Of a stretch of 64,000 bases of DNA, positions 38,001 through 64,000 are shown in pieces. Position numbers and translations under genes: made by a program. The notes beneath the pieces are model-generated. The model had not been told where the DNA came from and ran no database searches. It worked only from the letters and a program-made list of their open reading frames with translations. Numbering within the stretch: the stretch's first letter is position 1; each line of letters opens with the position of its first letter. Source of the stretch: a virus; IMG/VR virus record IMGVR_UViG_3300008012_000022, positions 29,369 through 93,368 of that record. One strand, given 5' to 3'.

Positions 38001-41000
38001 TGAAGCACTTCTTAAACCACTTTCAGTTTGTTTAATGGCTTTTGTTAGTTCTGCGTGACGTTCAGGGTTGATTGCCTCATCAGTATTCTCAAGCTCACGA
38101 ACTAATTCGCGCAATTTCAAACTAAGTTTATCTACTTCTGGTTGAGATTTGTTAAATTTCTTATTAAGTCCTTCATCTAATTGAGGTAATAAAAATGATG
38201 CAGCAAAACTAAGACCGAGAGCCGCACTACCTAAACGCCCGCCTTGCTTTGGAGGTTTTGATGATTGTGTTCTATTTTGAGATATTCCAGAAAGAGATGT
38301 AGATTTACCACGTCTAGCTCTTGCTCTAACCCTTTTTCTATCACGTTCACGTGCCTTTTTATCTTCTGCTCTTTGTTGAGCGGCGGATAATTGTCTATTT
38401 GGATCATCGTCTGGTAAGCTAGAGAAATTTCCACCTCCACCACCTCCACCAGTGCCTCCACCTCCACCAGATCCTATGCCACTACCAGATCCAGTGGCAG
38501 CACCAGCGCGACGTGTATTCAATATAGCGCCCGTAACAGGATCTATAGAAGTTGCCCCACTACGAGATAATACAGGAACAGGTCGTGGTCCTACTGAACC
38601 ACGACGAGTTAATGGTGGGACTTGTGGCGCTCTCCGAACACCTATAGTTCTATCACCTTGTTGTTTAGTGCGTGCTAACAATGTCGGCACAGGAGGTTTA
38701 CCTCTTCTGACTGCGACACGTGGAGGTCCACCACGACCTACTACTCTGCCACGGTTTCTTTTAGCAAATTGTTCTTGACGTGCTCGTGCTAATACATCGT
38801 TTCTAACCAATCTCTGTTTGCCAGTTTGAGGATCGCTCACAATAGTATAACCACTATTCGCCGCTTGAAGTCTCCTTCTTTGGTCTGGTGTTAATTCCTC
38901 AGGATCTATTGATGCAGGTTTAGACTTCGCTGCTTTTTTAGCTGGCTCTGATGGCTCAGGTGCAGGATCAGGTTCAGGTGCCCGTCTTTCTCCTGATGGT
39001 GATGCAGGTATAGCACCTGTGTCTGGATCAAATGGAATTCTCTCTTGAGTTAGCGGATTTACAAGTTCGCCGCTAGCTGCATCGAAGATAAACATATCAT
39101 CGGCAAAGTTTGGCGTTTTGCCTTTCACCATTTTCTTAACAGCTTTAGTAGCCTCAGGGAATAACTTTCTCCATTGTTTGGCACGAGCAGTATTACTAAA
39201 TGCCATAGCATAAGTCTCTGCAAAAAACTCTTGATCACTCAAGTTAGATACAGCAGAATCAGCTAATAAATTATTCGCTAAATTACCAGCGAAACCATTT
39301 CGGCGCTTGTCACGTTGTAGTGCAACTCTAAATCCTGCTGAACTAGATAACAATCCTGCTAAACGATCCCCTGTAGATGCCCCTACTCTTGTTTTTGAAA
39401 AATCAAAAGCATGACCAGATTCATGAAGTAATACATTTAGTGCTTCCTCTTGTGCTCGTTTACCACCGATACCACGTAGCCCCAATCTTGTGTTACTAGT
39501 TAAACCTAATATACCTGTTTCGCTATCGAAGCTACCACCTAATCCACCTCCACTGATGTTACCAAATCTTATACGTCCACCATTTGGACCTTGACTTAAT
39601 AAAGTGTCTAGTTGTTTACGAGGTAACCTTTTGAAAAGTTCTTTTACATCTTTGTTGTGTGCAAACTCTGTGCCTTTAAGAAGTTTGTTTACTCTGCGTC
39701 TTTTACCACCTAATAGGTCAAACAAACCAGCAGCACCACGTCTACCCAATCCACCAGCAAATCTTACGCCTCTACCTATATCTCTGATAGCATCAGGAAA
39801 TCCTCTGATAGCATCTCCTGCAACACCATATATACCTTGACTCTTTTTCAAAAGTTTGAAGGCGCGACTATTAGTGATTCTTTGAATACGTGAAAAGTTA
39901 GGGTAAACATGCTTACCCGCTATAAGGTCACGATTAGATACAGATGATGCTCTACCACCAGCTTGATCACGAGTATTCGTTACCACTAGACCCATAGGGT
40001 TGTGGCGTTTCGCTAATGGGTGAGTGTCTAATCTTACCTGATGTGGTTTAACACCTGTTCCTGTAGTTTCTCGCGCAACAGCATCAGCAATAGGATTCCG
40101 CGCAAATGACGGTATTGTTCCAACACCCTCATCAGGAATTTTTATTCTATATTGAGGATTATTAAGCTCCCATTCGACTAGCTCTTGATCGCTGTTGATT
40201 TCATTTTTTTGTCGTTTTAACTTTTTTTCTTCTTTACGGAGTTTTGCTACCCTTTTTGCTTCCGTAGGATAGTCACCAACACGTGGCGATTTGGCCCATA
40301 CATTAGACCTATAGAAATCTCCATCCCTATGAATACCCTCAACAGGTTTCGTTGTTTTGATCTCACGAGTTGTAGAATTAATCTCAGCAATCTCATCAGC
40401 TATATCATCAATACGTGGCTGAATAACTCTTTCAAAATTTTCCGCTGCATTAGTTTGAGCCTTTGATAAAATTGAAGGCATAGCAGCAGTTCGTTCCCGA
40501 AGTGCACGTAAGTTTGTTATTCCATAAGAGTTCTCAGTTAACCAAAATCTAGCACCTTCCTGACCAACTACCTTCTCTAGTTCACTAGCAAATTGTTGCG
40601 TTATTTCCTGATCAGGTCTATCGAAATCTAATAGTAATTTACGAGCGCCCGTTCCCGAAACATCCGTAGCAGATCTAGCCTTAACAACTACAGCATCAAA
40701 TACATCATCGATTAAATCTTTAGAGGAATCGGGATCAAAGTGAGTAAATAAAGATGAACCCGCTTCTTCACGAGTAAGTTTTATATTATCATCAAAAGCT
40801 GGTAGTTTAACACCAGCATCATCTAGTTTATCTTGACCAGCCACACGGATACTACCTTTGGTTGGTCGAACAATATCACCTTGAGCGTTTCTAACAAAAG
40901 GAAGTCTACTACTAAAACCTTCTCTGAAATCTGTATTAGATACTGATACCGCTGGACCTTCACCTATAGTAGCCGCAGCAATATTGGCGCGATCTCTTTG

Positions 41001-44000
41001 GTTCAATAGTTTACCGCGAAGACCATGATCATCAAAACCACCACCTCCAATTACTCCTTCTGCTTGCTTCTTACTAAAGCTTCCTCCATGCGAAATAAGG
41101 AATACAGTATTTTCTGGCGCAATGCCATGTTGACCTGCAATCCTTGCTAAGTCTGCGTGTCCCGCAGTTGTTGGTGAAAAGCCTCCAACCGCTACAGCTA
41201 CTTGACCACTCTTCAACTGTGGCGTATTTCCTTTAAGAAGACGACCATCATTCAATGTTACATCATGCAAACGCGCCAAACTTGATCCAAAGTTCTCTCT
41301 AATGTTTACGAACGCTGGTCTAGCACGATCACCTGCACCACCAATTTCAAACTTGCGGCTAGCTTCAATTGCAAGACCTTCAAGTATAGCAGTATCAGTA
41401 GTTGGTTGTCTACCGAATCTAGCTTGACCCGCTCGTTCCAATCCTTCGCCAGTGCTTGAACGGAAATGTCTACGTCTTAATATCTCTGAGTGTGCTGGAT
41501 TTTCGCGACTTGAAAGCACTACGATTCTATTCAGACCTTGAACTATATTTCTATCAATACCTTCACCTTGAATAGCATTGTTCAACAGTGGCGAAGCAGA
41601 AGTCTCTGATCTTGCGATGATAACATCGTCCAATGCATCAATGTCCGCAGGAGTAAGAATGTCTACTGTCTTCTGTCCACCGAACGCTTGTCCTGCTTTA
41701 CCTCTATTTCCACCACGAGATAAGAAAGTTTTTCCTGCACCTACTGGACCAACAACTAAGCTAGTTCTTTTTTCTTTTTCAATAGCGCGTTGTGACAGGA
41801 ACTTGTTATAGTTAGCTACGCTTTGTGGAGGTAGTTTACCTGTCATGGCATATTGATGATAACCTTGAGCATCAATAATACCATACTCCAACATAGCGTC
41901 TGCTACCTTATCTACATTCTTTGGATTTTGTAGAACATCGGAATCAATTATACCTTTGCTACGTCGTGTTCCTTGAATAACATCTCCAGCTTCGTTTTCA
42001 AACTGTCGCAATGGTCCACGTTGAAGTTCGCCGCCTGTCAGTTCTCTAATCTTACCATTCGACGCTCTTGCAAATATTCTTGCGAAGTTAGGTATATATC
42101 CTTTAGCAAAGGTAATACGATTTTCAAGACGACCACCTATTCTTGAACCCATACCTGTAACACGTCGCTCAAGGTCAGCCATATTTTTAAATGGCCCATT
42201 AGCTTCACGTTCTCTTACGATAGCCCGTGCTCGATCTGCATCAATCAATGGTAATTGTGCAGCAACAAGATCATCTACTGATACTCTATTGATATTTGGA
42301 TCGTGCCTTCTACCAATTTGATTAGCTGCACGGTGCCTGTTAGCTGATGTATCATTCGGATCAACTACATGTTGTGATAGTTCAGATCCTCCTTTACCAT
42401 CACTTCTATATAAAGTTTCTAATTTCGGCGCACCCGCTGAACTTGTTAGTTTAGCTTGTAAATCAGCACGACGCTTCATTTCCTCAGGGGTGATGTGTCC
42501 ACCACTGATCATCATAGTTTGAAGCTTCTTAGGAACTTTACCAGCTTCTATTTGTGCCTGACTAAAAATAGGTTTACCTAAAGCATTTTGAATAGTAAGT
42601 ATATCATCAAAACTCTGTAACGGAATTCGAGCAGCAATAGCTTCACTCATTGCTGGACCAACACCATCATATGCTGCCTCGATAGCTTTAGCATTACCCA
42701 ACTTGTTGATTTTATTAACCATACTTTGGGCTGGACCAATCGCGCCTGTAACTGGTGTAACTAGATCATCAAAAGCGTCATCAAACTTCGGCGCTCCCTT
42801 CTTCTTCGCCAAAAGGATTCTTTCAAAACGAGATTCTGTTTCTGATAAGCGGCGAGTTTTACCAGTTTGAGGGCGATGAGGAACAATAGCGAATTCTGGC
42901 TGTTGCGCTATCTCATCCATCAACTCGAAAATTTCATCGAGTTCATCAGGTTGGCTACGAGTAGCAGCGCGAATCTTTTTTGTCCGTCCGCGTAAACCTA
43001 ATTCTTTTCTTTCAGCACTAGATAGATGCTCTAAACCACTAGTTAGAATGACCCTATCATTCCTCTGACTAGCTGGTAAAAGAGAAGTGTCTGGTTTTTT
43101 TCCTAACTGACCAGATAATGACATAAGATAGGCAATCTCTTCTGGTTCTAAGTTATCTAAACTAGTCAGATGAATTTGTGGATCACCAGTTCTTTTTGAC
43201 TTATGAATATTGCTTACGCTTGAAGTAATTCTTACTCTTCTACCATCTGGAAGTGTATGGACATAATCAAGTGGCTCATGAACACGTCTTGAATCAGGAC
43301 CGTATCTTTGAGTTGATGGAATGTGATGGCGGCGATTTATACGAAGCGAAGCAAAATTCGGAAAGACACCTTTGGTTCCTGCTAACGCTTGATAGATAGC
43401 AGAATTCATTCCCCTATCATTTCCTAATGCAGCTAATAGATCTTTAGAGCTTGCATATCCCTGTTGTATTCCACGGGATCTGTTTATACGACCGTCAGCA
43501 TAGGAACCGAGAAGTGTGTTTAAAGATTCTCTATCTCTTACCGACAATCGTTGAAACATTGGATTCTCATATAACGCAAAGAAGTCTACATAATCTGTTT
43601 GTTTCGGATTACGGAATGGTGGTTTGCGTAATGGTCTACGTCCACCACCTGTATTGAAGCGGTTGAAATTACTACCACCACGTCCATGATGAAAGGAAGC
43701 GAAGTTTGGCACATCACCTGCGCCAACGTCACCAACTGCTGAAAAAGCGACGGGTGTATCAGGAAGTTGTTTGGCCGCTGTTGATAGATGAAACAACCTA
43801 TCTGGCTCAGGATTTTTAACCCCTGCAAGTTTAAATACTTTCGCTAAATATTCACGAAATTCTGCTTGTTCTTTAAGAACATATCCGACAGACTCTTTTC
43901 CTTTAGCTTCTCGTATAGCATGAAATTTTTTACCAAAATTAGCTGATTGAGGTGGATCAATTAATTTAAAAGCTTCGGCTAGCCTTTGTTGTTCTTCTTG

Positions 44001-47000
44001 CGATAGTTTTTTACTAGCAGCACGAGACAGTAAAGTAATATGTCTGTCTTCAATTGGAGACATACCATGAGGAACCTCAGGAGGATTATACCTTCTATCT
44101 AAACGTGTAGGCATAATAGCAGCACCTTTCATAACTGGTCTACCATTAATGATACGAGCATAGTTAGGTATCACCGCAGAATCTCCACTGATAGGACCAG
44201 CCCCAACAATTTCAGTCTCGTGATTATTCATCACGAATGGCTTACCACCAATTGTACCTTTGCCTCGTTTAGCTCTAACAGTTGATGGCGCACCGTGAGC
44301 CATTGCAGTTAACTCTTCTCTTGCACGCAGTTCAGGTGGTATATGCCCACCTGCAAAATATTGAATAGGTTCACGTCTACCGAAACGTTTAGATTCTATG
44401 TTTTGAGAAGAAGTTCTTAATCCACGACGTTCGCGTCTTTGTTGGAACCTCCCTTGTCTCTCTTGTCTAGCTGCTCTTTGAACTTTTTGTTGCTGTGTGA
44501 GTGTGCTTTTATCAGGTAATGAATCACCTGTAGCATCAAAAAACGCATGTCTCCAATCACCCTTGTATTCAAAATTAAGGACTTTCTTCACAAAGTCCTT
44601 CATATTGCGATCTGACGATGAGACTTTAGCCTCGAAATTTCTTGTGATTGTTGGTGCGCCAATTAATCCACGAAGTTTGGTAAGGTTTTGAGAGCCTGTA
44701 ATATCAAAATTATTTGACCCGTCACCTTGAGACGAAAGGAGTCCGAGATGATCAACAATCGCCGCCTCGAATGCTGCACCTACACCAGCAGCTAGAGCAC
44801 CTTGCGTGCCACCATCACCACCACCTATTAAGTGATTTCTCGCCGCGTGTTTTGTTGATCTGTTGTTACCTGCTAGTTCATAAGTTTTCGCCCATACAAC
44901 AGCTTCGTCTGCAACTTGTTCGATTATATCATTTTTGAAACCTTTCGCCGCTTCATCAACCTTTGGACCCTTCGGACTATAAAAATTAAAAGCATTGGCC
45001 GCAGTAGTATATGGGATAGGACGACCAGAATTAAATCTAGCACCATCTGGTGCTAACTTACTTATACTACGTGACAGTTCTTTTTGATTTAGCGACGGTA
45101 GTAATAAACCATGCTTACGAATAGATTTTATCTGTAGACTACCACGAGCCAATACAAGTTCTGTTCCTGCTTCAATGGCTTTTTGTATTCCTTCATGGTT
45201 CTTACCAAATCTTCCTTTAAGAGATTTTTCAACAAACGAGTTTAAGTTACGTCCTGTTCCTTGTCCTTTTAATTCTATTTTACCACCTTGAGAGAAAGCT
45301 TTTGAAGCCCATGCTCCCATGGTAGTTCCGCCCAACGTCCTAAATAGCTTCAATGCATTAGGTGGAATGTCACTAACATCAAATAGTTGACCTGTTCCTC
45401 CACCATGAGTAACACCAAACGCTGAAAATACTGCCGCTTCAAATGCCGAACCGATTAAACTACCGATAGCACCACGAGCACCTTCACCACGTTTCAATTC
45501 TCCTACAATACTTTCTGGCGTAGAAGAAGTTCTACCAAAAACAGATTCATTATATCCTACTGCGGATTTAGCGGCGAACTTTAAGAACCTTTCCTCTAAC
45601 AGTTCACGAGTTTCAGCCATATTGACATCTTCCTTCGTAGCTGGATAGAAACCCTGAAAAGCTCTCTTACCGTCTCTCTTAACAAATTGCCATGGAACAT
45701 TTACTTTCTTATTATCTTCATCAATAAAGCTGGCTTGTCCTTTACCCGCACCACTCGATGGTCCTAAATATCTTAATGAGTTGGCATCAGGAACCGCTAT
45801 AGCATATGAACTAATACCTTTGATTTTTAATCTAGAGGCGTCATCTGCCCCTTGTATATCTTTACGAACACCTGTCGCAGCTTTATCTACTAATGAAGAG
45901 AAACGATTCGCCGCTACACCTGATAGATCATAGTTTTTAAGTTTCTCCAAATCACCAGCAGAGACAGGACTGCCATTAAAAGTATATGAACCTTTCCGTC
46001 CAAATACTGAGTCAGATATTCTTTCAGATCCAGCTACACTGTTAAGTGCCGAATCTTTATATACAGCAGTAGCTAGCTCATCTATACTATTAGCATTAGT
46101 ATCAATATTTCTACTGCCATCGTCCGCAGTAACAATCTCATAAGTCGTCTTCTTATTCCAGTTGTCATTAATAACTGATGAGTCTATTCGTGAACGTAGA
46201 TTCGGTGAACCAAATAAAGTTCTGATTCTGTTACCTTCTGGTTGGGAATTAATAATTTCATCAATATTGCTTTGATGACTTCTATCAACAAACAAACGAA
46301 GCATTTGTTGTTGCTGCTCTGGTGTTCCTTTGAACCCATCTGCACCTGTGTTGAAAATTTTTCCGAACCTTTCTGACTGGAAATAACTACGTTGAACATG
46401 GTTCTCAATAGGAGTTCCATATGCAAAAATCTTTCCTAATTTTCGGTGTTTCGGTGGAGCTTTATATGATGGTATAACAGCAGCATCTTTACCACCACCA
46501 GCACGTGGCACCATCAATTCTTGATCGTTAAAAATAAAGTGTTGTCCACCAATCTGTGCAGGACCAGTAGACATATAGACATTAATTGGTCCACGCGCAC
46601 CTTCGGCACGAGCACGACGCTTCTCTTCTGAAATCAGTTCTCTATCGAAGACGGGTCTTGCGTAGTCGAGCGTATTTTTTTTTATAGTGCCCGACATACC
46701 AGCCGACATACCAGCCGATGGATAGTTACCAGCAGCAAATGAAGATATTGGTCTATTGAAACGATTAGTAAGCTGACCTCCTGCTGAATAGCCACGACCA
46801 CCTCTCGCATATACCCCCGCAGCAAGATCACGTAACAAATTCTTTTGGACTAACAGTAATGAGTTTTCTTGTTTGATCGCATTTTGAATAAGACGATGCT
46901 TCTGTTCAATAGTAACAGATTTACTTGCTATACTAGCACGTAACTTGTCGTCTTGAACCAACAGTTGAACTATACCACCCTCAATATCTTTGATTCTTTG

Positions 47001-48404
47001 AGAAGCAGAGTTAAGATGTAGAACCTCATTTAATCCCTGTCGTGCAAATCTACCTACCAGTTGCAAAATTTTAAGGAACGCACCTGTAATCAGAACTACA
47101 CCCGGACCTTGTATAAATTTTGCTATACCTTTAAAGATATCTTTAATGACATTAGATCCTGATTCAGGATCTAATGCTGTGCCGAAAAAGTCTGAAACTT
47201 TATTCGCAAGTGTAACTAGATCTTTAATGATCGGCGCTAGAGTAATCGCCCCAACCTTATTGCCGAGATCGGTCATACCTACAACCAACTCATTGATTTG
47301 AGAAGATAGAGATTTAGCTAGCTTTTCATTTTTATCAAAAGCCTCACTAGTAGCGTTAGATGAAATAGCTGTAGCTTCTCGAAACAGACTTTGATCTTTA
47401 GCTAAGTCTTTTAATGCTGCTGATACAACGTTAATCTGGAACACACCACCAGCAAGTTCTTTAATCTTATTCTTTTTAGTGGGATCTGATAGTCGTTCCA
47501 GTGCAGCAGACAACGCATTCAGCTTTTGAATACCAGATTGCGATGCATCAATTTGAACACCTAAGTCTTTTAGTTGGGCAAGGGAATCTGTTCGTGAAAT
47601 ACGAGTAAAAATAGATTTTAAGGCGTTACCAATAACAGCACCACCACGAGCGGTTGTTTGTTGAACAGCAGTAATAATACCGAGTAGTTCATCAAATGAA
47701 ACTCCAGCATCTTCCGCTGTCGCACCAGCACGTTGGAAACCATCAGCCAAATCTTTAGCAGATACAGCAAACTTTGTATCAACAGCAACGATCTTGTTAA
47801 CAATCTCTTCAGCTTGTAGCGCCGATCTTGTATAACCGTTGATCGCAGCAGTAAGAGCATTTACTGATGATACAGAATCAAGTCCTGAAATACGAGTTAG
47901 AATCAATGCGGCATTTAGTCGTTCCTGAGTCTCTGCTGCTTTCAAACCTTGACGTGCAAGTTCCGCTGCACCGTCAGCTACAGTAGTAAAAGATTGACCT
48001 GTGTTCTTGCCAATTTCGAAAATAGCCTTACGTAGATGTTGCATCTCTTCAGCCGTTCCGCCCATGATCGAATCAATTTCGATCAGTCGCTTTTCAACTT
48101 CAATAGTTGTACTTACTAAAGCACGAAAAGATTGGGTAACTGTATTTAATACAGCAGCAGTAGCACCGAACGCGAACACACGTGCGGTAGCAGCATCCAT
48201 AGATTTACGGAATTCGGTTGCTTGACCAGTAATTCGTCCCAACGATTGTTGGAAACCTTTCATACCACGAGGATTCAAATGGAGACTATTAAAATTCCCC
48301 TGAATTTGTTTCGCAGTCCGTCTGACCTGACGGTTAAGATTGTTCGTGTTGAGGTTAAGTTGAGCGTTGAACACTAACGCTCCACCTCTACTTATACTTG
48401 CCAT
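35034..48404 (-). CDS. Giant tape measure protein with enzyme-like modules
   Basis: 4456 residues. The N-terminal 400 are a TP901-type tape measure domain (GQSFTTVADGAAELARQGLK; GGAVIGNALKSIFTRISR). Then come, by eye: two related nuclease-like modules (FDVSD...IELKG near 1010-1045; FDITG...FEAKV near 1230-1260), two helix-hairpin-helix segments (near 1900 and 2040-2090), a P-loop (GPVGAGKT near 2220), a nucleotidyltransferase-like GGFSPTTAGH near 2408, and a zinc-protease-like HESGH near 2995. P-N-F-A-type linkers recur between modules. A poly-Gly stretch (near 3320) precedes membrane-like and coiled-coil regions. It should set tail length and may carry cargo into the host. Confidence 0.85.
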   Translation of the reverse strand: MASISRGGALVFNAQLNLNTNNLNRQVRRTAKQIQGNFNSLHLNPRGMKGFQQSLGRITGQATEFRKSMDAATARVFAFGATAAVLNTVTQSFRALVSTTIEVEKRLIEIDSIMGGTAEEMQHLRKAIFEIGKNTGQSFTTVADGAAELARQGLKAAETQERLNAALILTRISGLDSVSSVNALTAAINGYTRSALQAEEIVNKIVAVDTKFAVSAKDLADGFQRAGATAEDAGVSFDELLGIITAVQQTTARGGAVIGNALKSIFTRISRTDSLAQLKDLGVQIDASQSGIQKLNALSAALERLSDPTKKNKIKELAGGVFQINVVSAALKDLAKDQSLFREATAISSNATSEAFDKNEKLAKSLSSQINELVVGMTDLGNKVGAITLAPIIKDLVTLANKVSDFFGTALDPESGSNVIKDIFKGIAKFIQGPGVVLITGAFLKILQLVGRFARQGLNEVLHLNSASQRIKDIEGGIVQLLVQDDKLRASIASKSVTIEQKHRLIQNAIKQENSLLLVQKNLLRDLAAGVYARGGRGYSAGGQLTNRFNRPISSFAAGNYPSAGMSAGMSGTIKKNTLDYARPVFDRELISEEKRRARAEGARGPINVYMSTGPAQIGGQHFIFNDQELMVPRAGGGKDAAVIPSYKAPPKHRKLGKIFAYGTPIENHVQRSYFQSERFGKIFNTGADGFKGTPEQQQQMLRLFVDRSHQSNIDEIINSQPEGNRIRTLFGSPNLRSRIDSSVINDNWNKKTTYEIVTADDGSRNIDTNANSIDELATAVYKDSALNSVAGSERISDSVFGRKGSYTFNGSPVSAGDLEKLKNYDLSGVAANRFSSLVDKAATGVRKDIQGADDASRLKIKGISSYAIAVPDANSLRYLGPSSGAGKGQASFIDEDNKKVNVPWQFVKRDGKRAFQGFYPATKEDVNMAETRELLEERFLKFAAKSAVGYNESVFGRTSSTPESIVGELKRGEGARGAIGSLIGSAFEAAVFSAFGVTHGGGTGQLFDVSDIPPNALKLFRTLGGTTMGAWASKAFSQGGKIELKGQGTGRNLNSFVEKSLKGRFGKNHEGIQKAIEAGTELVLARGSLQIKSIRKHGLLLPSLNQKELSRSISKLAPDGARFNSGRPIPYTTAANAFNFYSPKGPKVDEAAKGFKNDIIEQVADEAVVWAKTYELAGNNRSTKHAARNHLIGGGDGGTQGALAAGVGAAFEAAIVDHLGLLSSQGDGSNNFDITGSQNLTKLRGLIGAPTITRNFEAKVSSSDRNMKDFVKKVLNFEYKGDWRHAFFDATGDSLPDKSTLTQQQKVQRAARQERQGRFQQRRERRGLRTSSQNIESKRFGRREPIQYFAGGHIPPELRAREELTAMAHGAPSTVRAKRGKGTIGGKPFVMNNHETEIVGAGPISGDSAVIPNYARIINGRPVMKGAAIMPTRLDRRYNPPEVPHGMSPIEDRHITLLSRAASKKLSQEEQQRLAEAFKLIDPPQSANFGKKFHAIREAKGKESVGYVLKEQAEFREYLAKVFKLAGVKNPEPDRLFHLSTAAKQLPDTPVAFSAVGDVGAGDVPNFASFHHGRGGSNFNRFNTGGGRRPLRKPPFRNPKQTDYVDFFALYENPMFQRLSVRDRESLNTLLGSYADGRINRSRGIQQGYASSKDLLAALGNDRGMNSAIYQALAGTKGVFPNFASLRINRRHHIPSTQRYGPDSRRVHEPLDYVHTLPDGRRVRITSSVSNIHKSKRTGDPQIHLTSLDNLEPEEIAYLMSLSGQLGKKPDTSLLPASQRNDRVILTSGLEHLSSAERKELGLRGRTKKIRAATRSQPDELDEIFELMDEIAQQPEFAIVPHRPQTGKTRRLSETESRFERILLAKKKGAPKFDDAFDDLVTPVTGAIGPAQSMVNKINKLGNAKAIEAAYDGVGPAMSEAIAARIPLQSFDDILTIQNALGKPIFSQAQIEAGKVPKKLQTMMISGGHITPEEMKRRADLQAKLTSSAGAPKLETLYRSDGKGGSELSQHVVDPNDTSANRHRAANQIGRRHDPNINRVSVDDLVAAQLPLIDADRARAIVREREANGPFKNMADLERRVTGMGSRIGGRLENRITFAKGYIPNFARIFARASNGKIRELTGGELQRGPLRQFENEAGDVIQGTRRSKGIIDSDVLQNPKNVDKVADAMLEYGIIDAQGYHQYAMTGKLPPQSVANYNKFLSQRAIEKEKRTSLVVGPVGAGKTFLSRGGNRGKAGQAFGGQKTVDILTPADIDALDDVIIARSETSASPLLNNAIQGEGIDRNIVQGLNRIVVLSSRENPAHSEILRRRHFRSSTGEGLERAGQARFGRQPTTDTAILEGLAIEASRKFEIGGAGDRARPAFVNIRENFGSSLARLHDVTLNDGRLLKGNTPQLKSGQVAVAVGGFSPTTAGHADLARIAGQHGIAPENTVFLISHGGSFSKKQAEGVIGGGGFDDHGLRGKLLNQRDRANIAAATIGEGPAVSVSNTDFREGFSSRLPFVRNAQGDIVRPTKGSIRVAGQDKLDDAGVKLPAFDDNIKLTREEAGSSLFTHFDPDSSKDLIDDVFDAVVVKARSATDVSGTGARKLLLDFDRPDQEITQQFASELEKVVGQEGARFWLTENSYGITNLRALRERTAAMPSILSKAQTNAAENFERVIQPRIDDIADEIAEINSTTREIKTTKPVEGIHRDGDFYRSNVWAKSPRVGDYPTEAKRVAKLRKEEKKLKRQKNEINSDQELVEWELNNPQYRIKIPDEGVGTIPSFARNPIADAVARETTGTGVKPHQVRLDTHPLAKRHNPMGLVVTNTRDQAGGRASSVSNRDLIAGKHVYPNFSRIQRITNSRAFKLLKKSQGIYGVAGDAIRGFPDAIRDIGRGVRFAGGLGRRGAAGLFDLLGGKRRRVNKLLKGTEFAHNKDVKELFKRLPRKQLDTLLSQGPNGGRIRFGNISGGGLGGSFDSETGILGLTSNTRLGLRGIGGKRAQEEALNVLLHESGHAFDFSKTRVGASTGDRLAGLLSSSAGFRVALQRDKRRNGFAGNLANNLLADSAVSNLSDQEFFAETYAMAFSNTARAKQWRKLFPEATKAVKKMVKGKTPNFADDMFIFDAASGELVNPLTQERIPFDPDTGAIPASPSGERRAPEPDPAPEPSEPAKKAAKSKPASIDPEELTPDQRRRLQAANSGYTIVSDPQTGKQRLVRNDVLARARQEQFAKRNRGRVVGRGGPPRVAVRRGKPPVPTLLARTKQQGDRTIGVRRAPQVPPLTRRGSVGPRPVPVLSRSGATSIDPVTGAILNTRRAGAATGSGSGIGSGGGGGTGGGGGGGNFSSLPDDDPNRQLSAAQQRAEDKKARERDRKRVRARARRGKSTSLSGISQNRTQSSKPPKQGGRLGSAALGLSFAASFLLPQLDEGLNKKFNKSQPEVDKLSLKLRELVRELENTDEAINPERHAELTKAIKQTESGLRSASRAAEEMSGKISLFTGLGLAAVSAMEPLSSAVKGLGKAASNVPLGPLAAAGSSKALTAIGGSVAGGTGLAVGGAIAAALALAIGGGILANKARKREIGETSEEDRLSTKLFREGKEEGDTFKTIQGVAIQTLTAPFDAIGKHIGKVEKNFDIFDGKLIGGSSKIDNFGLSFSDIIPSLKGLSVSAEEGDIGLEKFGKSLGKTGLELANFELKLPTVRNLTEFFAKPLTGFTIDQLNDQERQYQIENSVQAGEGQERLATYGADGRITGFNVVSNAQAEARRQRIQGERVVGQIDRLREQRQRFDDLGIDTTRTVVKSRVGQISKRDKQFQQFDFGSARNQISLQESLARFLPEGTADEANRKSQKLLKLEEQKLRLAKNDADSALNLSTELPEINIVDFDKSVDNIRTALNDPKFAETFARSNFENKRTIRKTIDGKRRRGEFDFSDDKSPADAAKRAEDIIAKRIEKETISLSKLRGIEDNKKFFQAFSRVKIKDKSFIGDARGGILNALSAEAKEALRGEKLISGAFGNRDARSKEINDLTNFRDFIIDDDKPLTKDAFEAFEDKVDEIIKKGINVEGIEEWRSANHELFAGMVQLQQQRMVEERAAFERTRAENKAFLQQYGQSVDNLAAKFRNLGQPNAGLNTIDINNPFGANNDVLFDQLGVAGQDRSRLRSNIANNQIFNIDDILGKEVSDSGKVTFRNETFEAFRKATNIARETEPLDENGRVRFSKGVQEEVFQKLDFRRAEGLGRQIGGPVNRITRQFSQLQNADSVSDVLSSIDLIRQTKTAGEAAIRQIPLNDEAGREQLRGVVNSLISEMGGIIQQSVAGTTALGFADTARANATKEEKIRSKFDKEQKDIDTLLDEDALKNKGTSETATDKDVLGDQIKAKIDTAAKPLYDSLTEFQGNMKKFNGFMSTAAKDSEAVAQELKRANAALAEVSQAIDVPAIRDVFDKLREAANEADAKELTGGATTYEFDFKPVKSK
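39098..46478 (-). repeat. P-N-F-A-type linker repeats in the tape measure
   Basis: Eight short related motifs occur at 46461-46478 (VIPSYK), 44158-44174 (VIPNYA), about 43696 (VPNFAS), 43348 (FPNFAS), 42080 (IPNFAR), 40101 (IPSFAR), 39890 (YPNFSR) and 39098 (TPNFAD). The first two also share a longer module (IGGxxFxxNxxE...GxDxAVIP). They lie between the enzyme-like modules. Confidence 0.7.
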
Positions 48405-57049: not shown

Positions 57050-58603
57050 TTATTTGTTTTCTTCGAGAGCCAAACCGTTCTGCTGGAATCTCTGAAATAG
57101 TGTTAAACCTTCTGCGTCTTCACCGATGTTGTTAAGAAGTGGAGAAGCTTGAGCGTCTAGCGTAGCTAGTTGCTTTGCCATATCAGGCGAATCTTCTTTG
57201 TCTTCTTTACCTTCATCGTTTTTCGATGCTTTGGTTGCAGTTTTAGTTTCGCCCTCTTTGCTCTTGTCGTCTTTGTTTTCTTCACCTTCACCTTTATTAG
57301 CTTCTGCTTCTGCTTTAGCAGCGGCAATTGCTTCCTTGTTGCGGTGAGCAAAAACAACCTTAACTTTCTCCAAATAAGAGGCGAATGCTTCATCGTCAGC
57401 AGGAAGTCCTTGAACTTCTTTTGCCACGATAGCTTCTTCTGCTTCTTCTAGAGCGAATTGGCTGGCGATTGTTGCCATACGAGTATTCAGTTTATCTGCT
57501 GCATCGCGAACTGAAATATCGTCTTGAAATTTGTTAATAGTATCCTTCGCATCTTTCAGTTGATCTTCAAGCTGCTTAAGTGCTGCTTGAGTGTTCTTCA
57601 TATCTTCCGAGTGTTGGTCAGACTGAGATTTCCAGTCTTTACCTTTTTCCTCAAAAAGAGTATTTAGTTTCTCAAACACTTCCTGCGCAGGACTGTCTGA
57701 GCTACCATCTTTAGAAGCGATAGATGAGATCATGTCGCTGACCTCTTTCTTAAATTTATCGAATTCTTCTTTATCCATAGCTATGTTAGTCTCGTTATCT
57801 GTTACATCTGTTTCTTTGTTTTCGGAAATTTTTTCATCACTTATGCTAGCAAGTGCGTAAATACCCTCTACCGCAGCAGCAGGATTCTCTGTTAATCCTA
57901 ATCCTACAGGTATTTTCTCACCGCGCAAAACGCGCCGAACCTTTTCCCCTTTATGTGTTTTTCCACTACCACCATTAAATTTCAACATTGCAGATAGTGA
58001 TTGGAATTGAGGGTCGTCAGCAGTAACAATTCTAGTGTCTTGAATAAGCTCACCATCACCTACTGCAACGTCGTATGAAGAAAAGGCAACCTCCCATGAT
58101 GCTGCATATGCATTATATGTATCATCATAAGGATCACTAGCTCTTGCTATAGCCTCTGCCAACTCTGGAAAAACAGAGCGGTAGATGAACCCTAACCCCG
58201 AAATATAGAATGAGTCACTTCTATTAATGTAGTCTAAAGGATCGCCAACAGCGAATGCTGGTTCATACTCAGCAAATCCAGCGCGGACTAAGTGACCTAC
58301 GATAATGTTTTTTTGGTGCTCAATATTAATTGGCTTATGCGGGAACTTAGGTAGCATCTTAGCTGCACCCATAGATGGAACCGCATCATCATTATCATTA
58401 AATTTGTTTACAATAGCGATAGACATCAAGATAGGCATGATGTCTATGTTATCCCATGGCGCGAAATTCTCAGGAATGAGAGATGAAGCTTGCGCCTCTT
58501 TTAACATGGAAGCTTTCGAAATATGATACTTATCATATTCTTCTTCTTTAATGGCGGTTATATTTGAACGCCATTCAGTTTTAAATTGATTTTTTTTACT
58601 CAT
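57050..58603 (-). CDS. Prohead protease fused to scaffold
   Basis: A 517-residue protein. Residues 90-230 hold KFPHKPINIEHQKNIIVGHL and YAASWEVAFSSYDVAVGDGE, which fit the His and Ser of herpes/U35-type prohead proteases. From about residue 265 the chain is charged coiled coil (FKKEVSDMISSIASKDGSSD; LKQLEDQLKDAKDTINKFQD) with Lys/Glu repeats, a typical internal scaffold. Such fusions self-cleave during head maturation. The call rests on these patterns and on gene order portal - protease - capsid. Confidence 0.65.
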   Translation of the reverse strand: MSKKNQFKTEWRSNITAIKEEEYDKYHISKASMLKEAQASSLIPENFAPWDNIDIMPILMSIAIVNKFNDNDDAVPSMGAAKMLPKFPHKPINIEHQKNIIVGHLVRAGFAEYEPAFAVGDPLDYINRSDSFYISGLGFIYRSVFPELAEAIARASDPYDDTYNAYAASWEVAFSSYDVAVGDGELIQDTRIVTADDPQFQSLSAMLKFNGGSGKTHKGEKVRRVLRGEKIPVGLGLTENPAAAVEGIYALASISDEKISENKETDVTDNETNIAMDKEEFDKFKKEVSDMISSIASKDGSSDSPAQEVFEKLNTLFEEKGKDWKSQSDQHSEDMKNTQAALKQLEDQLKDAKDTINKFQDDISVRDAADKLNTRMATIASQFALEEAEEAIVAKEVQGLPADDEAFASYLEKVKVVFAHRNKEAIAAAKAEAEANKGEGEENKDDKSKEGETKTATKASKNDEGKEDKEDSPDMAKQLATLDAQASPLLNNIGEDAEGLTLFQRFQQNGLALEENK

Positions 58604-60848
58604 CTTCGATTACAGGAATTGTGTGATATAATAGAGCGGCGGAATAATCATCTAGTTGATGTGCTTCCGCTATTTCTATAATAATTGGTTGCGTATGCAT
58701 TACCTTCAATCGATTAATATCTTTAACCGTTGATGCGAATGCATCGTCCCATTCTGGAATCTCAAAGCTTTTCACTACTTTCAAGCATAAATCCCCGATC
58801 ATCTTTTCTTGTTCTTCGGAAAGTTCGTCACTAGCTTTCAATTCCTTATACTTTTCTACACTTCTATCTTGAAACTTGCGTATATCAAAGCACAATTCAA
58901 CAAGAGCATCTGATGAATATACCTCTGATGCTTGTCCTACAGGTCTACCACCAGATGGTGCAGAAACAGTTGGTGAGTTAGGTGATTGAGATGTGGGTGT
59001 TCGTCTTCGTGGATAACGTCTACGTCTACCTATTCTATCTACATAGGTTCCTGATCTTCTACCACCACCTCTGTTTTTATCTTGAGGATCACCACCACGA
59101 CCACCACCGTCAGAAGGTCTACCCGTAGGTTCCTTCGGTTCCTTTTTTAAAGGTGCATTTGGATCAGATGGGTCAGGGCGCGGAACTCCTTCACGCTGCA
59201 TTTGCTGCATCTCTAGTTCCATTTGTTCACACAATTTGATAGCATCATTCTCTGCCATCGGATCGAAGAAATTCTGCGATGCTGTTAACGGTGCATATAG
59301 ACCTTCTAACTTCTCTTCACGCAATTCGAGTTGTGCTTCCTTCATAGTATCAACAGCAGGGAATTCTCCTTTGTGGATAGTATCGATACCTTGTTCAGGT
59401 GTTAGAACACCGAGTTCCATCATACGAATGACAAGCTTCTGTAGCTTCTCACTATTAATGACATCTTCTTTTTGAAAGTGAATTTGTGGGATTTTACGAA
59501 ACCCGAATTCTTTACACAAGCGATCAACCTCTGGCTGAAGGAACTCCCTTAAGAATTGTTCCTTTCCTTTCTCCAATCGCTGAAAGAATAGTTTGAGTTT
59601 CAATTCAGTGTCACTATATTTACTCTCCCCTATAAGAATATTACCCAAACCTTCCTGAATATCTTTGTTCAGCACTTCGTATTTGGCCTCACCCATAATA
59701 AGAGTCAAATCAGGAAGAACGAATTCAGCTTGAGTGGTATAGTCCGACACGAGAACACGACCCACAGACTTGTTCTCAAAAATTTGGCGCATGGCAGCAA
59801 GGTTATTGTGGTTAATGCCACCTTTGTCAGGCTCAGTACCCATCGTAACCAGCAGAATAACATTTTCCACTGAGCGTGCGATAGCCTGATCAACCTTTTT
59901 CAATTCTAGTTTCTTGTTAATATCATCTAGAACTGAGAAACCTAATGGAACCGCTAACGGCTCATAGTCTTGCTTTTTATAAAATACCACATGGAAACTT
60001 TTAGGATCAAGTTCAAGCAGAACTTGATTGCCAGTCTGAATAGCAGAATGCTCTTTGAGTTGGTCTTTAACATCTTTATCAAGAGATTCATAAATATATT
60101 TCTCTTCATCTGTTGTCGCGTTGCGTAATCGTTCAACCTCAAAAGGAGTTAGAGCTTTAGCGTATTGAAACTTGCCAAACGATAATTGACCGTTCACTAC
60201 AATATCTGTGGGATTGAGAATGATATATTTGACAGGTACTCGCTTGAGCACCGAATTATCCTTTAACTTGAAGTTCTTAACAGTCTCTTGTTTTAACTGG
60301 CTATCCAGTCGATACATGAAAACGTTGGAACCTCGGTAATACTCACGAAAGTATTGATCTTTCAGATTATCAAGGTTGATTTTCTTGAACCACGCTTTTA
60401 CAAAATTGCGGCTAGAAACAGAACCACCCTCCATGTAAGTATGAGCATCTGAAAATTCCGCTAAAAGATCAAGGGTAGATTTAAAAACAGGAACATTGTA
60501 GTAAGCTTTCTGACAAAGTAAGATTGCTTCTGTTACATTAACCGAATTCCCTGCTACTTGAAACGGCACCAAACCCTCGTTGATATTGTTGAAGCGTTGG
60601 CCTATTGTTTCTTTGGTGACACGGTTTGTCCGTGATGAGGTGCGTGCATTTGGTTCACTTAAACGACCTCCAGAAGCAGTTGAATCAAAGGATATCAAAG
60701 GCTCTCCGCACATTGCGGGTTCAAAGTCTTCCGTAATTTCAGGCGCGACTTTAGCAAACAATGGATCAGAAGATTCCGCCCTACGCTTGCCTAAGTTTTC
60801 CCAATATTCGGTATTACGTTTTTTATATGGACGTTTCTGTTTCGCCAT
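58596..60848 (-). CDS. Portal protein
   Basis: About 750 residues from MAKQKRPYKKRNTEYWENLG. The core contains LLAEFSDAHTYMEGGSVSSR, YIILNPTDIVVNGQLSFGKF and KIPQIHFQKEDVINSEKLQK, LGVLTPEQGIDTIHKGEFPA, consistent with phage portals. After residue 560 a Gly/Arg/Pro-rich low-complexity stretch (GGRGGDPQDKNRGGGRRSGT) leads to a helical C-terminal domain. Portals form the DNA gate at one vertex. I start it at 60848; an upstream frame extension to 60890 adds 14 residues. Terminase is not adjacent. Confidence 0.7.
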   Translation of the reverse strand: MAKQKRPYKKRNTEYWENLGKRRAESSDPLFAKVAPEITEDFEPAMCGEPLISFDSTASGGRLSEPNARTSSRTNRVTKETIGQRFNNINEGLVPFQVAGNSVNVTEAILLCQKAYYNVPVFKSTLDLLAEFSDAHTYMEGGSVSSRNFVKAWFKKINLDNLKDQYFREYYRGSNVFMYRLDSQLKQETVKNFKLKDNSVLKRVPVKYIILNPTDIVVNGQLSFGKFQYAKALTPFEVERLRNATTDEEKYIYESLDKDVKDQLKEHSAIQTGNQVLLELDPKSFHVVFYKKQDYEPLAVPLGFSVLDDINKKLELKKVDQAIARSVENVILLVTMGTEPDKGGINHNNLAAMRQIFENKSVGRVLVSDYTTQAEFVLPDLTLIMGEAKYEVLNKDIQEGLGNILIGESKYSDTELKLKLFFQRLEKGKEQFLREFLQPEVDRLCKEFGFRKIPQIHFQKEDVINSEKLQKLVIRMMELGVLTPEQGIDTIHKGEFPAVDTMKEAQLELREEKLEGLYAPLTASQNFFDPMAENDAIKLCEQMELEMQQMQREGVPRPDPSDPNAPLKKEPKEPTGRPSDGGGRGGDPQDKNRGGGRRSGTYVDRIGRRRRYPRRRTPTSQSPNSPTVSAPSGGRPVGQASEVYSSDALVELCFDIRKFQDRSVEKYKELKASDELSEEQEKMIGDLCLKVVKSFEIPEWDDAFASTVKDINRLKVMHTQPIIIEIAEAHQLDDYSAALLYHTIPVIEDE

Positions 60849-60883
60849 GTCTTTGCTTCTTACACAGAAAGTTAAGAAATTTC

Positions 60884-60912
60884 TTGACAATTTTTAACTT
60901 TTGGGCAATAAT
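60884..60912 (+). promoter_or_regulatory. Sigma70-type promoter for the rightward genes
   Basis: TTGACA (60884-60889), 17-nt spacer, AATAAT (60907-60912), then 5 nt to an ATG at 60918: a leaderless arrangement. Confidence 0.7.
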
Positions 60913-61243: not shown

Positions 61244-61316
61244 GGGGATGTAGTGGTACTAGATAACACATCTGATTTGCAATCAGAAAAACACGGAGCG
61301 TAACCGTGCTTCTCCA
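61244..61316 (+). tRNA. tRNA-Ala (TGC)
   Basis: Acceptor GGGGATG pairs with CTTCTCC and includes the G3:U70 wobble that marks tRNA-Ala. Anticodon arm TCTGA-TTTGCAA-TCAGA gives TGC. The T-loop reads AGCGTAA rather than TTCGAAT-type, and the D-stem has only three pairs. CCA is not encoded. Confidence 0.75.
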
Positions 61317-61322
61317 CTTAAA

Positions 61323-61398
61323 TGTTTCGTAGTTTAAATCAGAAAAACAGCCCCTTGTTGTAAAGGGAAAGATACAGGCTCGAACCCTGTCGAAGCGC
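61323..61398 (+). tRNA. Irregular tRNA, anticodon uncertain (Thr TGT or Gln TTG)
   Basis: Acceptor TGTTTCG/CGAAGCG, D-arm GTTT/AAAC and T-arm ACAGG-CTCGAAC-CCTGT are clear. The anticodon arm (around CCCCTTGTTGTAAAGGG) is two bases longer than normal and can be read as Thr (TGT) or Gln (TTG). CCA follows closely. Confidence 0.55.
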
Positions 61399-61402
61399 CA
61401 AC

Positions 61403-61474
61403 TGTCCCGTAGCTTAAAAGTAAAGCGTCACCCTCATAAGGTGGAAGTTGTAGGTGCAAGACCTACCGGAACAA
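61403..61474 (+). tRNA. tRNA-Met/Ile2 (CAT)
   Basis: Acceptor TGTCCCG/CGGAACA has six of seven pairs; anticodon arm TCACC-CTCATAA-GGTGG gives CAT; T-arm GTAGG-TGCAAGA-CCTAC. U1:A72 pairs, so it is an elongator Met or a lysidine-type Ile, not the initiator. Confidence 0.75.
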
Positions 61475-61484
61475 TTAATTTAAA

Positions 61485-61856
61485 ATGCCCTGTAAAGATA
61501 AAAAATCACAAGCTGAATCGGCTCGAAAACATTACCTAAAAAATAAAAAGGTAATAAAAGCTAAAGCGGCGAATTTTAAATCTGAAACGGCAATACCACG
61601 AAATAAAAAATTTGTTCGCGAATATTTACTTAAACACCCTTGTATAGACTGTGGAGAAAGTGATCCAATCGTGTTAGAATTTGATCATGTTCGTGGAATT
61701 AAAAAAGGAAACATATCTAATATGGTAAATCAAGCATACTCTATTAAAAGAATTAAACAAGAAATTGAGAAATGTGAAGTGAGATGTGCTAATTGTCATA
61801 GAAGAATAACATTTTATCGCAGAATAGAGCAGTCTGGTAGCTCGTCAGTCTCATAA
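61485..61856 (+). CDS. HNH endonuclease inside the tRNA array
   Basis: A 123-residue protein. HPCIDCGESDPIVLEFDHVR and CEVRCANCHRRITFYRRIEQ form an HNH core with two cysteine pairs. It lies between two CAT tRNAs. Its last 13 codons are read from the 5' half of the initiator-like tRNA, and the stop codon TAA (61854-61856) starts at the third base of that tRNA's anticodon. It is probably a homing endonuclease whose target is a tRNA gene. Start at 61485, with no Shine-Dalgarno. Confidence 0.75.
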   Translation: MPCKDKKSQAESARKHYLKNKKVIKAKAANFKSETAIPRNKKFVREYLLKHPCIDCGESDPIVLEFDHVRGIKKGNISNMVNQAYSIKRIKQEIEKCEVRCANCHRRITFYRRIEQSGSSSVS

Positions 61857-61892
61857 ACTGAAGGTCACGTGGTTCGAATCCCGTTTCTGCAA
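61818..61892 (+). tRNA. Initiator-like tRNA-fMet (CAT)
   Basis: The 5' end CGCAGAA pairs with TTCTGCA except C1:A72, the unpaired end that marks bacterial initiator tRNAs. D-arm GAGC/GCTC matches E. coli fMet closely. Anticodon arm TCAGT-CTCATAA-ACTGA gives CAT but lacks the three G:C pairs of standard initiators. The T-stem has one bulged T. Confidence 0.8.
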
Positions 61893-61962
61893 CTTTAGAT
61901 AACTTAAGGGCCAAACGTTGATCGTCCGACCATGAGGTTTTCTTTTTGAAAATCAAAGAATT

Positions 61963-62228: not shown

Positions 62229-62233
62229 TCTCT

Positions 62234-62320
62234 GTATGTTGTCACCCTTTTCTGTCTGTAAAACAGTCGTCGTTAAACGTAGGGATGGTCCGACAAGTGG
62301 TTCGATTCCGCCAACATACA
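62234..62320 (+). tRNA. tRNA-Tyr-like (GTA), D-arm missing
   Basis: Acceptor GTATGTT pairs with AACATAC. Anticodon arm CTGT-CTGTAAA-ACAG gives GTA. The variable region is 29 nt with a GTCG/CGAC stem, as in long-arm tRNA-Tyr. T-loop TTCGATT is normal. Only 11 nt lie between acceptor and anticodon stems, so no D-arm can form. Confidence 0.6.
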
Positions 62321-62324
62321 TTAT

Positions 62325-62398
62325 CTCTCTCTGGTGTAAGGTGGTGTGCACATCTGATTGAAGCTCAGAGGGTGCGGGTTCGATTCCTGCGGGAGAGA
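62325..62398 (+). tRNA. tRNA-Phe (GAA)
   Basis: Acceptor CTCTCTC/GGGAGAG (one wobble), D-stem GTGT/GCAC, anticodon arm TCTGA-TTGAAGC-TCAGA giving GAA, T-arm GCGGG-TTCGATT-CCTGC. Discriminator A73. Complete cloverleaf. Confidence 0.8.
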
Positions 62399-62409
62399 CT
62401 TAATTTTCA

Positions 62410-62499
62410 GGATGGCGAAATAAGCTGGTGCTTATCAAACTCTTCAAAAGTTTAGGTTCCACGAGAATTGCGGAACAGGTTCAATTCCAACACCATCCA
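62410..62499 (+). tRNA. UGA-reading tRNA (TCA), long variable arm
   Basis: Acceptor GGATGG/CCATCC, discriminator A and encoded CCA (62500-62502). Anticodon arm AAACT-CTTCAAA-AGTTT has five perfect pairs and anticodon TCA, which reads the stop codon UGA. D-stem is 5 bp with a 6-nt loop; variable arm has a GTTCC/GGAAC stem. The T-stem has only two or three pairs. Could be a suppressor (Ser/Leu-type) or a relic; tRNA-Sec-like traits are partial. Confidence 0.65.
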
Positions 62500-62504
62500 C
62501 CAAT

Positions 62505-62576
62505 GGGACTGTAGTGAAATGGATATCACGATTGACTACGGATCAATAAATGAGGGTTCGACTCCTTCCAGTCCTA
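62505..62576 (+). tRNA. tRNA-Arg (ACG)
   Basis: Acceptor GGGACTG/CAGTCCT, anticodon arm ATTGA-CTACGGA-TCAAT giving ACG, T-arm GAGGG-TTCGACT-CCTTC. Complete cloverleaf; a T-run follows. Confidence 0.85.
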
Positions 62577-62584
62577 CTTTTTTC

Positions 62585-63298: not shown

Positions 63299-63540
63299 GT
63301 AATCAATTCATAGAACAATGAAATCCAATTTTAGAGACAGACAACTCATTAAGATTAGCGGCGGGAAACCCGTTGATAATCGATGGGATGATAATGTCTC
63401 ACCGTTATCATAAGGCTTGATTCGGGTATTGGTGTAATCAACATATTTTTCACGGTCGGAAAAAGCTTTCAAACTCACTGATCAGAGTCACTGAAATACC
63501 CAATCAGCCAAATGGTAACAACTGTACTCACGCGAGTAAC
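63299..63540 (+). ncRNA. Possible structured RNA
   Basis: Several stems follow the strong promoter: CGGG/CCCG at 63362-63372; ATGATAA/TTATCAT at 63388-63411; a 12-bp pairing with one bulge between 63418-63430 and 63495-63506; TACTC/GAGTA at 63525-63538. A 31-codon frame (63318-63413) overlaps the first stems and could be the alternative explanation. Function unknown. Confidence 0.35.
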
Positions 63541-63591
63541 AGAACATTTTAAGATGCCAACAGCACATTTATTTTTCACCATTACTTAAAT

Positions 63592-63616
63592 TGCCCGTGC
63601 CAGAAAAGCAGGGACA
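63592..63616 (+). other. Hairpin before the second tRNA-Arg
   Basis: TGCCC-G-TGC / GCA-GGG-ACA with a 7-nt loop. It lies between related AACAGCA-containing repeats. It may be a processing site. Confidence 0.3.
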
Positions 63617-63660
63617 GCATCTAGACATTTTAAAGATACGAACAGCAAACAACTTAAACA

Positions 63661-63731
63661 GTTAAATTAGCTCATTGGTTGAGCATTAGTCTACGAAACT
63701 AACGAAGCTGGTTCAATTCCAGCATTTAAAC
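63661..63731 (+). tRNA. tRNA-Arg (ACG), second copy
   Basis: D-arm GCTC/GAGC, anticodon arm TTAGT-CTACGAA-ACTAA giving ACG and T-arm GCTGG-TTCAATT-CCAGC are clear. The acceptor is A/T-rich (GTTAAAT/ATTTAAA) with a weak end pair. It differs in sequence from the Arg tRNA at 62505. Confidence 0.75.
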
Positions 63732-63790
63732 AGTAAAAGTATCTTGACCTTTTTCCACGAAAGTGGTAGACACTAACAGCAACAAACTTC

Positions 63791-63841
63791 GACAGTTGGA
63801 CGGTAGCATGTGTCTAGAAAATAATTATACCGACAACTGTT
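63791..63841 (+). promoter_or_regulatory. Long hairpin before an HNH gene
   Basis: ACAGTTG plus CGGTA pair with TACCG plus CAACTGT (12 bp, small internal loop). It ends 9 nt before the ATG at 63850 and could control its translation, as the hairpin of T4 I-TevI does. Confidence 0.4.
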
Positions 63842-63849
63842 ACCAATTT

Positions 63850-64000
63850 ATGATATACGCAACAAGAGTTTGTAAAACATGCGGTTTCCGTGGAAACATG
63901 TTTACTGATTTTCCTAAAGCGGGAGTTATTAAAGAAGTAACTTATTATCGCCATGTGTGCAACACTTGTTACTTGAAACAAAAAAACGAATATAAACAAT
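63850..64000 (+). CDS. Partial zinc-finger/HNH-type gene at right edge
   Basis: The visible 50 codons start MIYATRVCKTCGFRGNMFTD and include a second Cys pair (RHVCNTCYLKQKNEYKQ). This knuckle resembles the N-terminus of the HNH gene at 50602-51144. An in-frame ATG at 63808 is an alternative start. The catalytic HNH part lies outside the window, so the call is tentative. Confidence 0.5.
   Translation, partial: MIYATRVCKTCGFRGNMFTDFPKAGVIKEVTYYRHVCNTCYLKQKNEYKQ

Follow-up and report, generated by a model that had tools for sequence, protein, structure and literature searches.

The tRNA gene with anticodon TCA at positions 62410-62502 of the window, on the plus strand, raises the question of whether the phage that carries it reads UGA stop codons. 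The window is a stretch of 64,000 nucleotides, bases 29369-93368 of an IMG/VR virus record, which is a linear fragment of 93368 bases from an incomplete genome. The first-pass annotation described a TCA-anticodon tRNA with a perfect anticodon arm, a long variable arm and an encoded CCA, which sequence, Rfam and fold bear out, and equated its 7-nt loop with that of bacterial tRNA-Sec, which sequence and fold agree with, the loop being CUUCAAA. The gene is laid out as GGATGGCG AA ATAAGC TGGT GCTTAT C AAACT CTTCAAA AGTTT AG GTTCC ACGAGAATTGC GGAAC A GG TTCAATT CC AA CACCATCC A CCA. The 5' acceptor strand (62410-62417) forms six standard pairs, a C.A mismatch and one G-C pair with the 3' strand (62491-62498). 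The D-arm (62420-62435), with 6 bp and a 4-nt loop, is a hallmark of tRNA-Sec. The anticodon arm (62437-62453) presents TCA at 62444-62446, the variable arm occupies 62456-62476, and the T-arm (62478-62488) has two G-C pairs only, closing the loop TTCAATT.

The tRNA-Sec family of Rfam (RF01852) matches the gene over its full length (62409-62499, E=2.2e-6) with 47.4 bits, which is marginal against a gathering score of 47, and the two-armed tRNAs described below also score 32-50 bits. The general tRNA family RF00005 gives no match at 62410-62502 up to E 10, though it reports the neighbouring tRNAs, and ARAGORN misses the gene at its default setting and calls tRNA-SeC(tca) when the threshold is lowered to 80%. 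The minimum-energy fold is a five-arm cloverleaf of -24.5 kcal/mol (z=-2.4 against shuffles), in which the D, anticodon and variable arms keep every one of their 16 pairs and the defects lie in the acceptor/T branch. A tRNA-Phe ends 9 nt before the gene and a tRNA-Arg begins 2 nt after it. The gene is real, above chance.

Bacterial tRNA-Sec (selC, RF01852) shares with this tRNA the UCA anticodon in a CUUCAAA loop, the D-arm of 6 bp and 4 nt, the long variable arm and the encoded CCA. The acceptor/T branch of tRNA-Sec has 13 nt, with 12 in a minority; that of the window tRNA has 12 nt with mismatches, and its T-stem has 2 standard pairs. The discriminator base is A73 (62499) and not G73, which is essential for serylation of tRNA-Sec and for later steps; non-G73 candidates in a genome survey had low scores, were partly pseudogenes and were in no case accepted as functional (PMC5330540). 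By that survey, A73 would conflict with Ser or Sec charging of the window tRNA (PMC5330540). The molecule is thus Sec-shaped yet fails membership of tRNA-Sec, because of A73, the mismatched 12-nt branch and the 2-pair T-stem. The phage also differs from the selC setting in that family searches found no SelA, SelB or SelD genes on its contig, though a host might supply them, and in that no UGA-interrupted gene was found in about 109 kb. Allo-tRNAs and selC* tRNA-Cys (PMC7609411) are alike in their Sec-like shape, their 12-nt acceptor/T branch and in not being tied to Sec insertion. They are unlike the window tRNA in identity: allo-tRNAs have Ser (or Ala) identity, with SerRS determinants that include G73, and selC* has U73 for CysRS, whereas the window tRNA has A73. 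Allo-tRNAs have an 8/4 or 9/3 branch; the branch of the window tRNA has 12 nt in total, with only 2 T-stem pairs. Salmonella phage SSBI34 (PMC8879037), compared by annotation, resembles the window phage in having two genes annotated as tRNA-Sec within a tRNA set and differs in encoding a seryl-tRNA ligase as well.

The use of UGA by the phage was addressed with a junction test, in which a codon score trained on long ORFs is used to count same-frame neighbouring coding segments joined by one stop. Its scope is about 109 kb of an incomplete genome, namely the 93-kb contig and its extension on the sister contig L143. The first-pass annotation had proposed a search for genes with in-frame TGA, and over these 109 kb the test finds no TGA junction, 2 TAG junctions and 4 TAA junctions. 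Coding segments end in TGA in 30 of 106 cases, and in a better gene set 25 of 29 TGA-ended genes overlap or abut an ATG, in agreement with the earlier remark that UGA is a common stop at gene overlaps. The median distance to the next in-frame stop is 5 codons after TGA genes and 6 after TAA genes; since these values are similar, there is no special readthrough back-up at TGA genes. The junction test and the gene-end statistics rule out general UGA recoding in this phage. The claim that the tRNA reads UGA stops in the phage is left unsupported by the absence of TGA junctions and of readthrough adaptation, by A73 and by the lack of Sec genes; what survives of the interpretation is that a Sec-type loop could pair with UGA. 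A start-less segment after a TGA (L026 14262-14531), considered as a readthrough gene, reads as an AP2-type remnant adjoining the NAMPT gene.

Other phages provide the controls. When IMG/VR is scanned by pattern for class II TCA tRNAs, three groups emerge: selC-type genes with G73, several of which are placed at contig ends in the manner of integration sites, and two of which lie inside contigs (G056, 131 kb; G057, 532 kb); G73 tRNAs in which the variable arm is long and the D-arm mostly canonical; and the window tRNA, the sole member with A73. The 31 loci of the second group have 109 TGA, 2 TAG and 18 TAA junctions, and individual records reach 35/5/18 (G053), 51/6/8 (G054), 19/1/7 (G051) and 9/1/1 (G049) in the same order. 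The selC-type loci have 4 TGA, 1 TAG and 9 TAA junctions, and relatives of the window phage's portal gene have 2, 4 and 34. The test has power, because other phages whose UCA tRNAs are long-armed show 9 to 51 TGA junctions, and it separates recoding from non-recoding phages that carry UCA tRNAs. TGA-recoding phages and the opal suppressor tRNAs of phages (PMC12386605, PMC13037316) are alike in that the phage encodes a UCA tRNA, but there the tRNA is linked to Trp (or labelled Gly) and in most cases occurs with many in-frame TGA codons, whereas none is found here. The kind is already known, from suppressor tRNAs without recoding (PMC12386605) and from phage tRNA-Sec annotations (PMC8879037), and the window tRNA, Sec-shaped but with A73, is a variant of it. 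Phage UCA tRNAs are easily miscalled as Sec or suppressor tRNAs, and the window case shows that recoding does not follow from a Sec-type shape, a matching loop and an Rfam score above the cut-off. The window tRNA is probably not a working code change.

The gene belongs to an array of about 27 tRNAs, which is flanked by the genes for the portal (window 58596-60890) and the terminase (L143 2548-4521). These include tRNAs for Ala, Arg, Asn, Asp, Cys, Gln, Gly, His, Ile, Leu, Lys, Met, Phe, Pro, Ser, Thr, Trp and Val, a Tyr-like tRNA, an initiator-like tRNA-Met and a tRNA (L143 1397-1472) that is read as Glu from its loop TTTTCAG. The array is nearly complete, with almost all amino acids supplied. 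Its plus-strand members in the window that are found by both ARAGORN and Rfam are tRNA-Ala (TGC, 61244-61316), tRNA-Met (CAT, 61403-61474), a second tRNA-Met (CAT, 61818-61893) whose first acceptor pair is the C.A mismatch that marks initiators, tRNA-Phe (GAA, 62325-62399) and two tRNA-Arg (ACG, 62505-62577 and 63661-63731). A weak tRNA at 61323-61398, on the same strand, is probably Thr (TGT), called Gln by ARAGORN at low threshold, and a Tyr-like tRNA (GTA) with a long variable arm at 62233-62320, also on the plus strand, is missed by ARAGORN and recognized by sequence and fold.

The sister contigs L108 (98.3% identity, 1456 bases) and L109 (99.98%, 6135 bases) continue the array past the window end, and each has one identical copy of tRNA(UCA). 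Because the shared 1.37 kb has zero differences, this identity across three contigs is uninformative on selection. Pattern scans of IMG/VR and inspection of portal relatives found no relative of tRNA(UCA) outside one phage species. INPHARED contains no relative of tRNA(UCA) and none of the portal. IMG/VR has many portal relatives, at 34-58% identity, and they lack such a tRNA array; as a source of homologous tRNAs they gave none over the cut-off outside the species, the best match, in G014, being a tRNA-Ser(TGA). Portal relatives in genome bins fall in scattered aquatic MAGs and are indecisive for host assignment.

The explanation preferred here, held tentatively and at a little short of an even chance, is that of a captured selC-like tRNA that has lost its Ser/Sec identity and rides, idle or weakly active, in a near-complete tRNA set. 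A selC-type gene would have been captured into the phage array that supplies nearly every amino acid, and tRNA(UCA) would be transcribed and processed together with that array. A73 and the 12-nt branch would make it a poor substrate for SerRS and SelA, without Sec insertion, and it would read UGA at most weakly, with an unspecified amino acid. Any readthrough would produce mostly short and harmless extensions, since the next stop is near. The phage would retain the tRNA, or would not yet have lost it, as a member of the set, whose likely role, by analogy with published phage work, would be to replace host tRNAs damaged in infection.

The main rival, which is possible but less probable, is that the captured selC-like tRNA is a decaying relic, no longer aminoacylated or bound by the elongation factor. 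The first-pass annotation had warned of a relic on account of the weak T-stem, and the warning stands: the 2-bp T-stem could mean that the tRNA is dead, and the acceptor C.A mismatch and A73 point in the same direction. Decay also occurs among neighbours, because the tRNA-Ser (TGA) of the same array is intact in L108 (3522-3614) and truncated in L109 (reverse complement, approximately 8595-8650), where the variable arm and part of the T-arm are lost. Against decay stand the perfect D, anticodon and variable arms and the intact CCA, as well as the identity of the three copies, though the latter is silent on selection for the reason given above.

That the tRNA suppresses UGA in a restricted way, at a single target or a handful, is unlikely, and the sole lead to such a role is a loose candidate, an ORF with an RF-1 (GGQ) domain within the array (L108/G047 6219-6653, identical in L109 reverse complement from 11257 onward). 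The PF00472 match of this ORF reaches 80.5 bits (G047:6219-6554), and its phage relatives start 11-13 residues ahead of the position matched by the query. The ORF has no start codon at the start of its relatives and shows there, in frame, TGA-ATC-GCG-TGA; an in-frame ATG lies 24 codons before the RF-1 domain, the upstream region containing two TGA codons. However, it is equally likely that translation begins at a GTG located five codons inside the open frame, or enters by frameshifting from another ORF that overlaps this one; two successive upstream TGA stops are not rare by chance, and the ORF with the TGA pair is known from one species alone. A functional Sec-shaped UGA reader with a new non-Ser identity, kept for one or few UGA-gated genes such as this release-factor-like ORF, is rather improbable.

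It seems similarly doubtful that the tRNA is a decoy or replacement for tRNAs hit by host anticodon nucleases, its reading of UGA being incidental. This reading is drawn by analogy from phage tRNAs that evade tRNA-targeting defences (PMC10264068, PMC11555353) and from crAss-like phages, whose suppressor tRNAs occur without recoding and have been proposed to act in counter-defence (PMC12386605). A working tRNA-Sec that makes selenoproteins with SelA, SelB and SelD of the host is very improbable, since the Sec-type D-arm, the CUUCAAA loop and the existence of G73 tRNA-Sec genes on other phage contigs are set against A73, with no non-G73 candidate accepted as functional (PMC5330540), the mismatched 12-nt branch and the lack of any UGA gene found in the phage.

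The comparison yielded two results that are stronger than those on the window tRNA itself: two-armed tRNAs and the contig G056. At least 46 distinct phage tRNAs combine a UCA anticodon arm with a second hairpin, located in the variable arm, that has a Trp-type CCA loop (IMG/VR loci L010, L025, L159, L224, L308, L312, L313, L321, L325, L329, L347, L362 and about 34 more). The loop of the second hairpin has 7 nt, G/C/T-UCCAA-A/C, and is the anticodon loop of tRNA-Trp with CCA. Its 5-bp stem is paired at a mean of 4.48 of 5 positions, compared with 2.49 on reshuffling of the 3' arms (2000 shuffles, maximum 3.0; n=46), and the stems covary, with all four Watson-Crick types present at the first three positions. 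G73 is found in 46 of 46 and A1-U72 in 38 of 46, and their near relatives in INPHARED are tRNA-Trp genes. At in-frame TGA sites of these phages the residue of homologues is most often Trp (54 sites), and a further 30 sites with Leu stem largely from repetitive reading frames of one phage; one TGA in a tail sheath aligns with a Trp of T4 gp18, and a comparison of the terminase with PDB for the residue at UGA found nothing. These alignments indicate that phages with two-armed tRNAs, whose genes contain many in-frame TGA codons, read UGA as Trp. We infer that a UCA tRNA obtains from its second arm the TrpRS identity it would otherwise lack, either directly or via an alternative fold in which the arms are exchanged, and such tRNAs could explain the charging of UGA-reading tRNAs by ordinary TrpRS. 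No description of them was found in a literature search that was not exhaustive. The window tRNA is alike in its phage origin, its UCA in a CUUCAAA loop and its long variable arm, but it has neither the variable-arm CCA loop, G73 and the frequent A1-U72 of the two-armed tRNAs nor the recoding: its variable arm is GTTCC-ACGAGAATTGC-GGAAC, and the second hairpin with a UCCAA loop is absent.

The contig G056 (IMGVR_UViG_3300035670_000038, 131 kb) encodes SelA (74782-75864, 477 bits), a G73 tRNA-Sec (85998-86094, 57.7 bits) and SelD (98675-99607, 377 bits). Support for G056 as a phage comes from the gene for a virion structural protein (phrog_1645, 309 bits), which follows SelA at a distance of about 1.1 kb, and from matches elsewhere on the contig to the families of UvsX-like recombinase, RNR and DNA polymerase. 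Family searches did not find SelB on it, and a crude scan detected no selenoprotein. From its sequence, G056 is probably phage DNA with genes for SelA, SelD and tRNA-Sec, a chimeric assembly being another possible source of the combination. Its two TGA junctions were considered as recoding: one joins the neighbouring genes ClpP and Mom, and the other is without a family match. The contig G057 (IMGVR_UViG_3300049215_000771, 532 kb) has a G73 tRNA-Sec at 80837-80929 (76.5 bits); it also encodes a synthetase of class Ic (Tyr/Trp-type) and a protein with an RF-1 domain, and a match to a SelB-like GTPase stays below the cut-off.

Family searches over the proteins examined identify DNA polymerase III alpha, DnaB, RNR, NAMPT and a PRPP-synthetase-like protein in the window phage. 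Nicotinamide phosphoribosyltransferase and the PRPP-synthetase-like gene lie at L027 6-1577 and 1728-2597, which suggests NAD salvage by the phage. The minus strand of the window at 35034-48404 contains an ORF of 4456 aa, and the other large proteins scanned in this block gave no family.

The array itself contains unusual members. Class swaps are seen in L108 (1877-1961, 2681-2757 and 5431-5505), where a tRNA-Asn (GTT) combines G73 with a variable arm that is long, as in tRNA-Ser, while the variable arms of two tRNA-Leu are short. Odd tRNA-like structures occur in L108 at 1776-1860, 2352-2483 and 2765-2860; in one, the T-arm and 3' acceptor half precede the 5' acceptor half and D-arm, as in a permuted tRNA gene, and the others have insertions or reordered arms. 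At window 63300-63850 and L108 1355-1870, tRNAs are flanked by the repeats AGAYAC-TNACAGCAA and GTRTCT-AGACATTTT, in which base changes preserve the complementarity and between which the cassettes vary from strain to strain.
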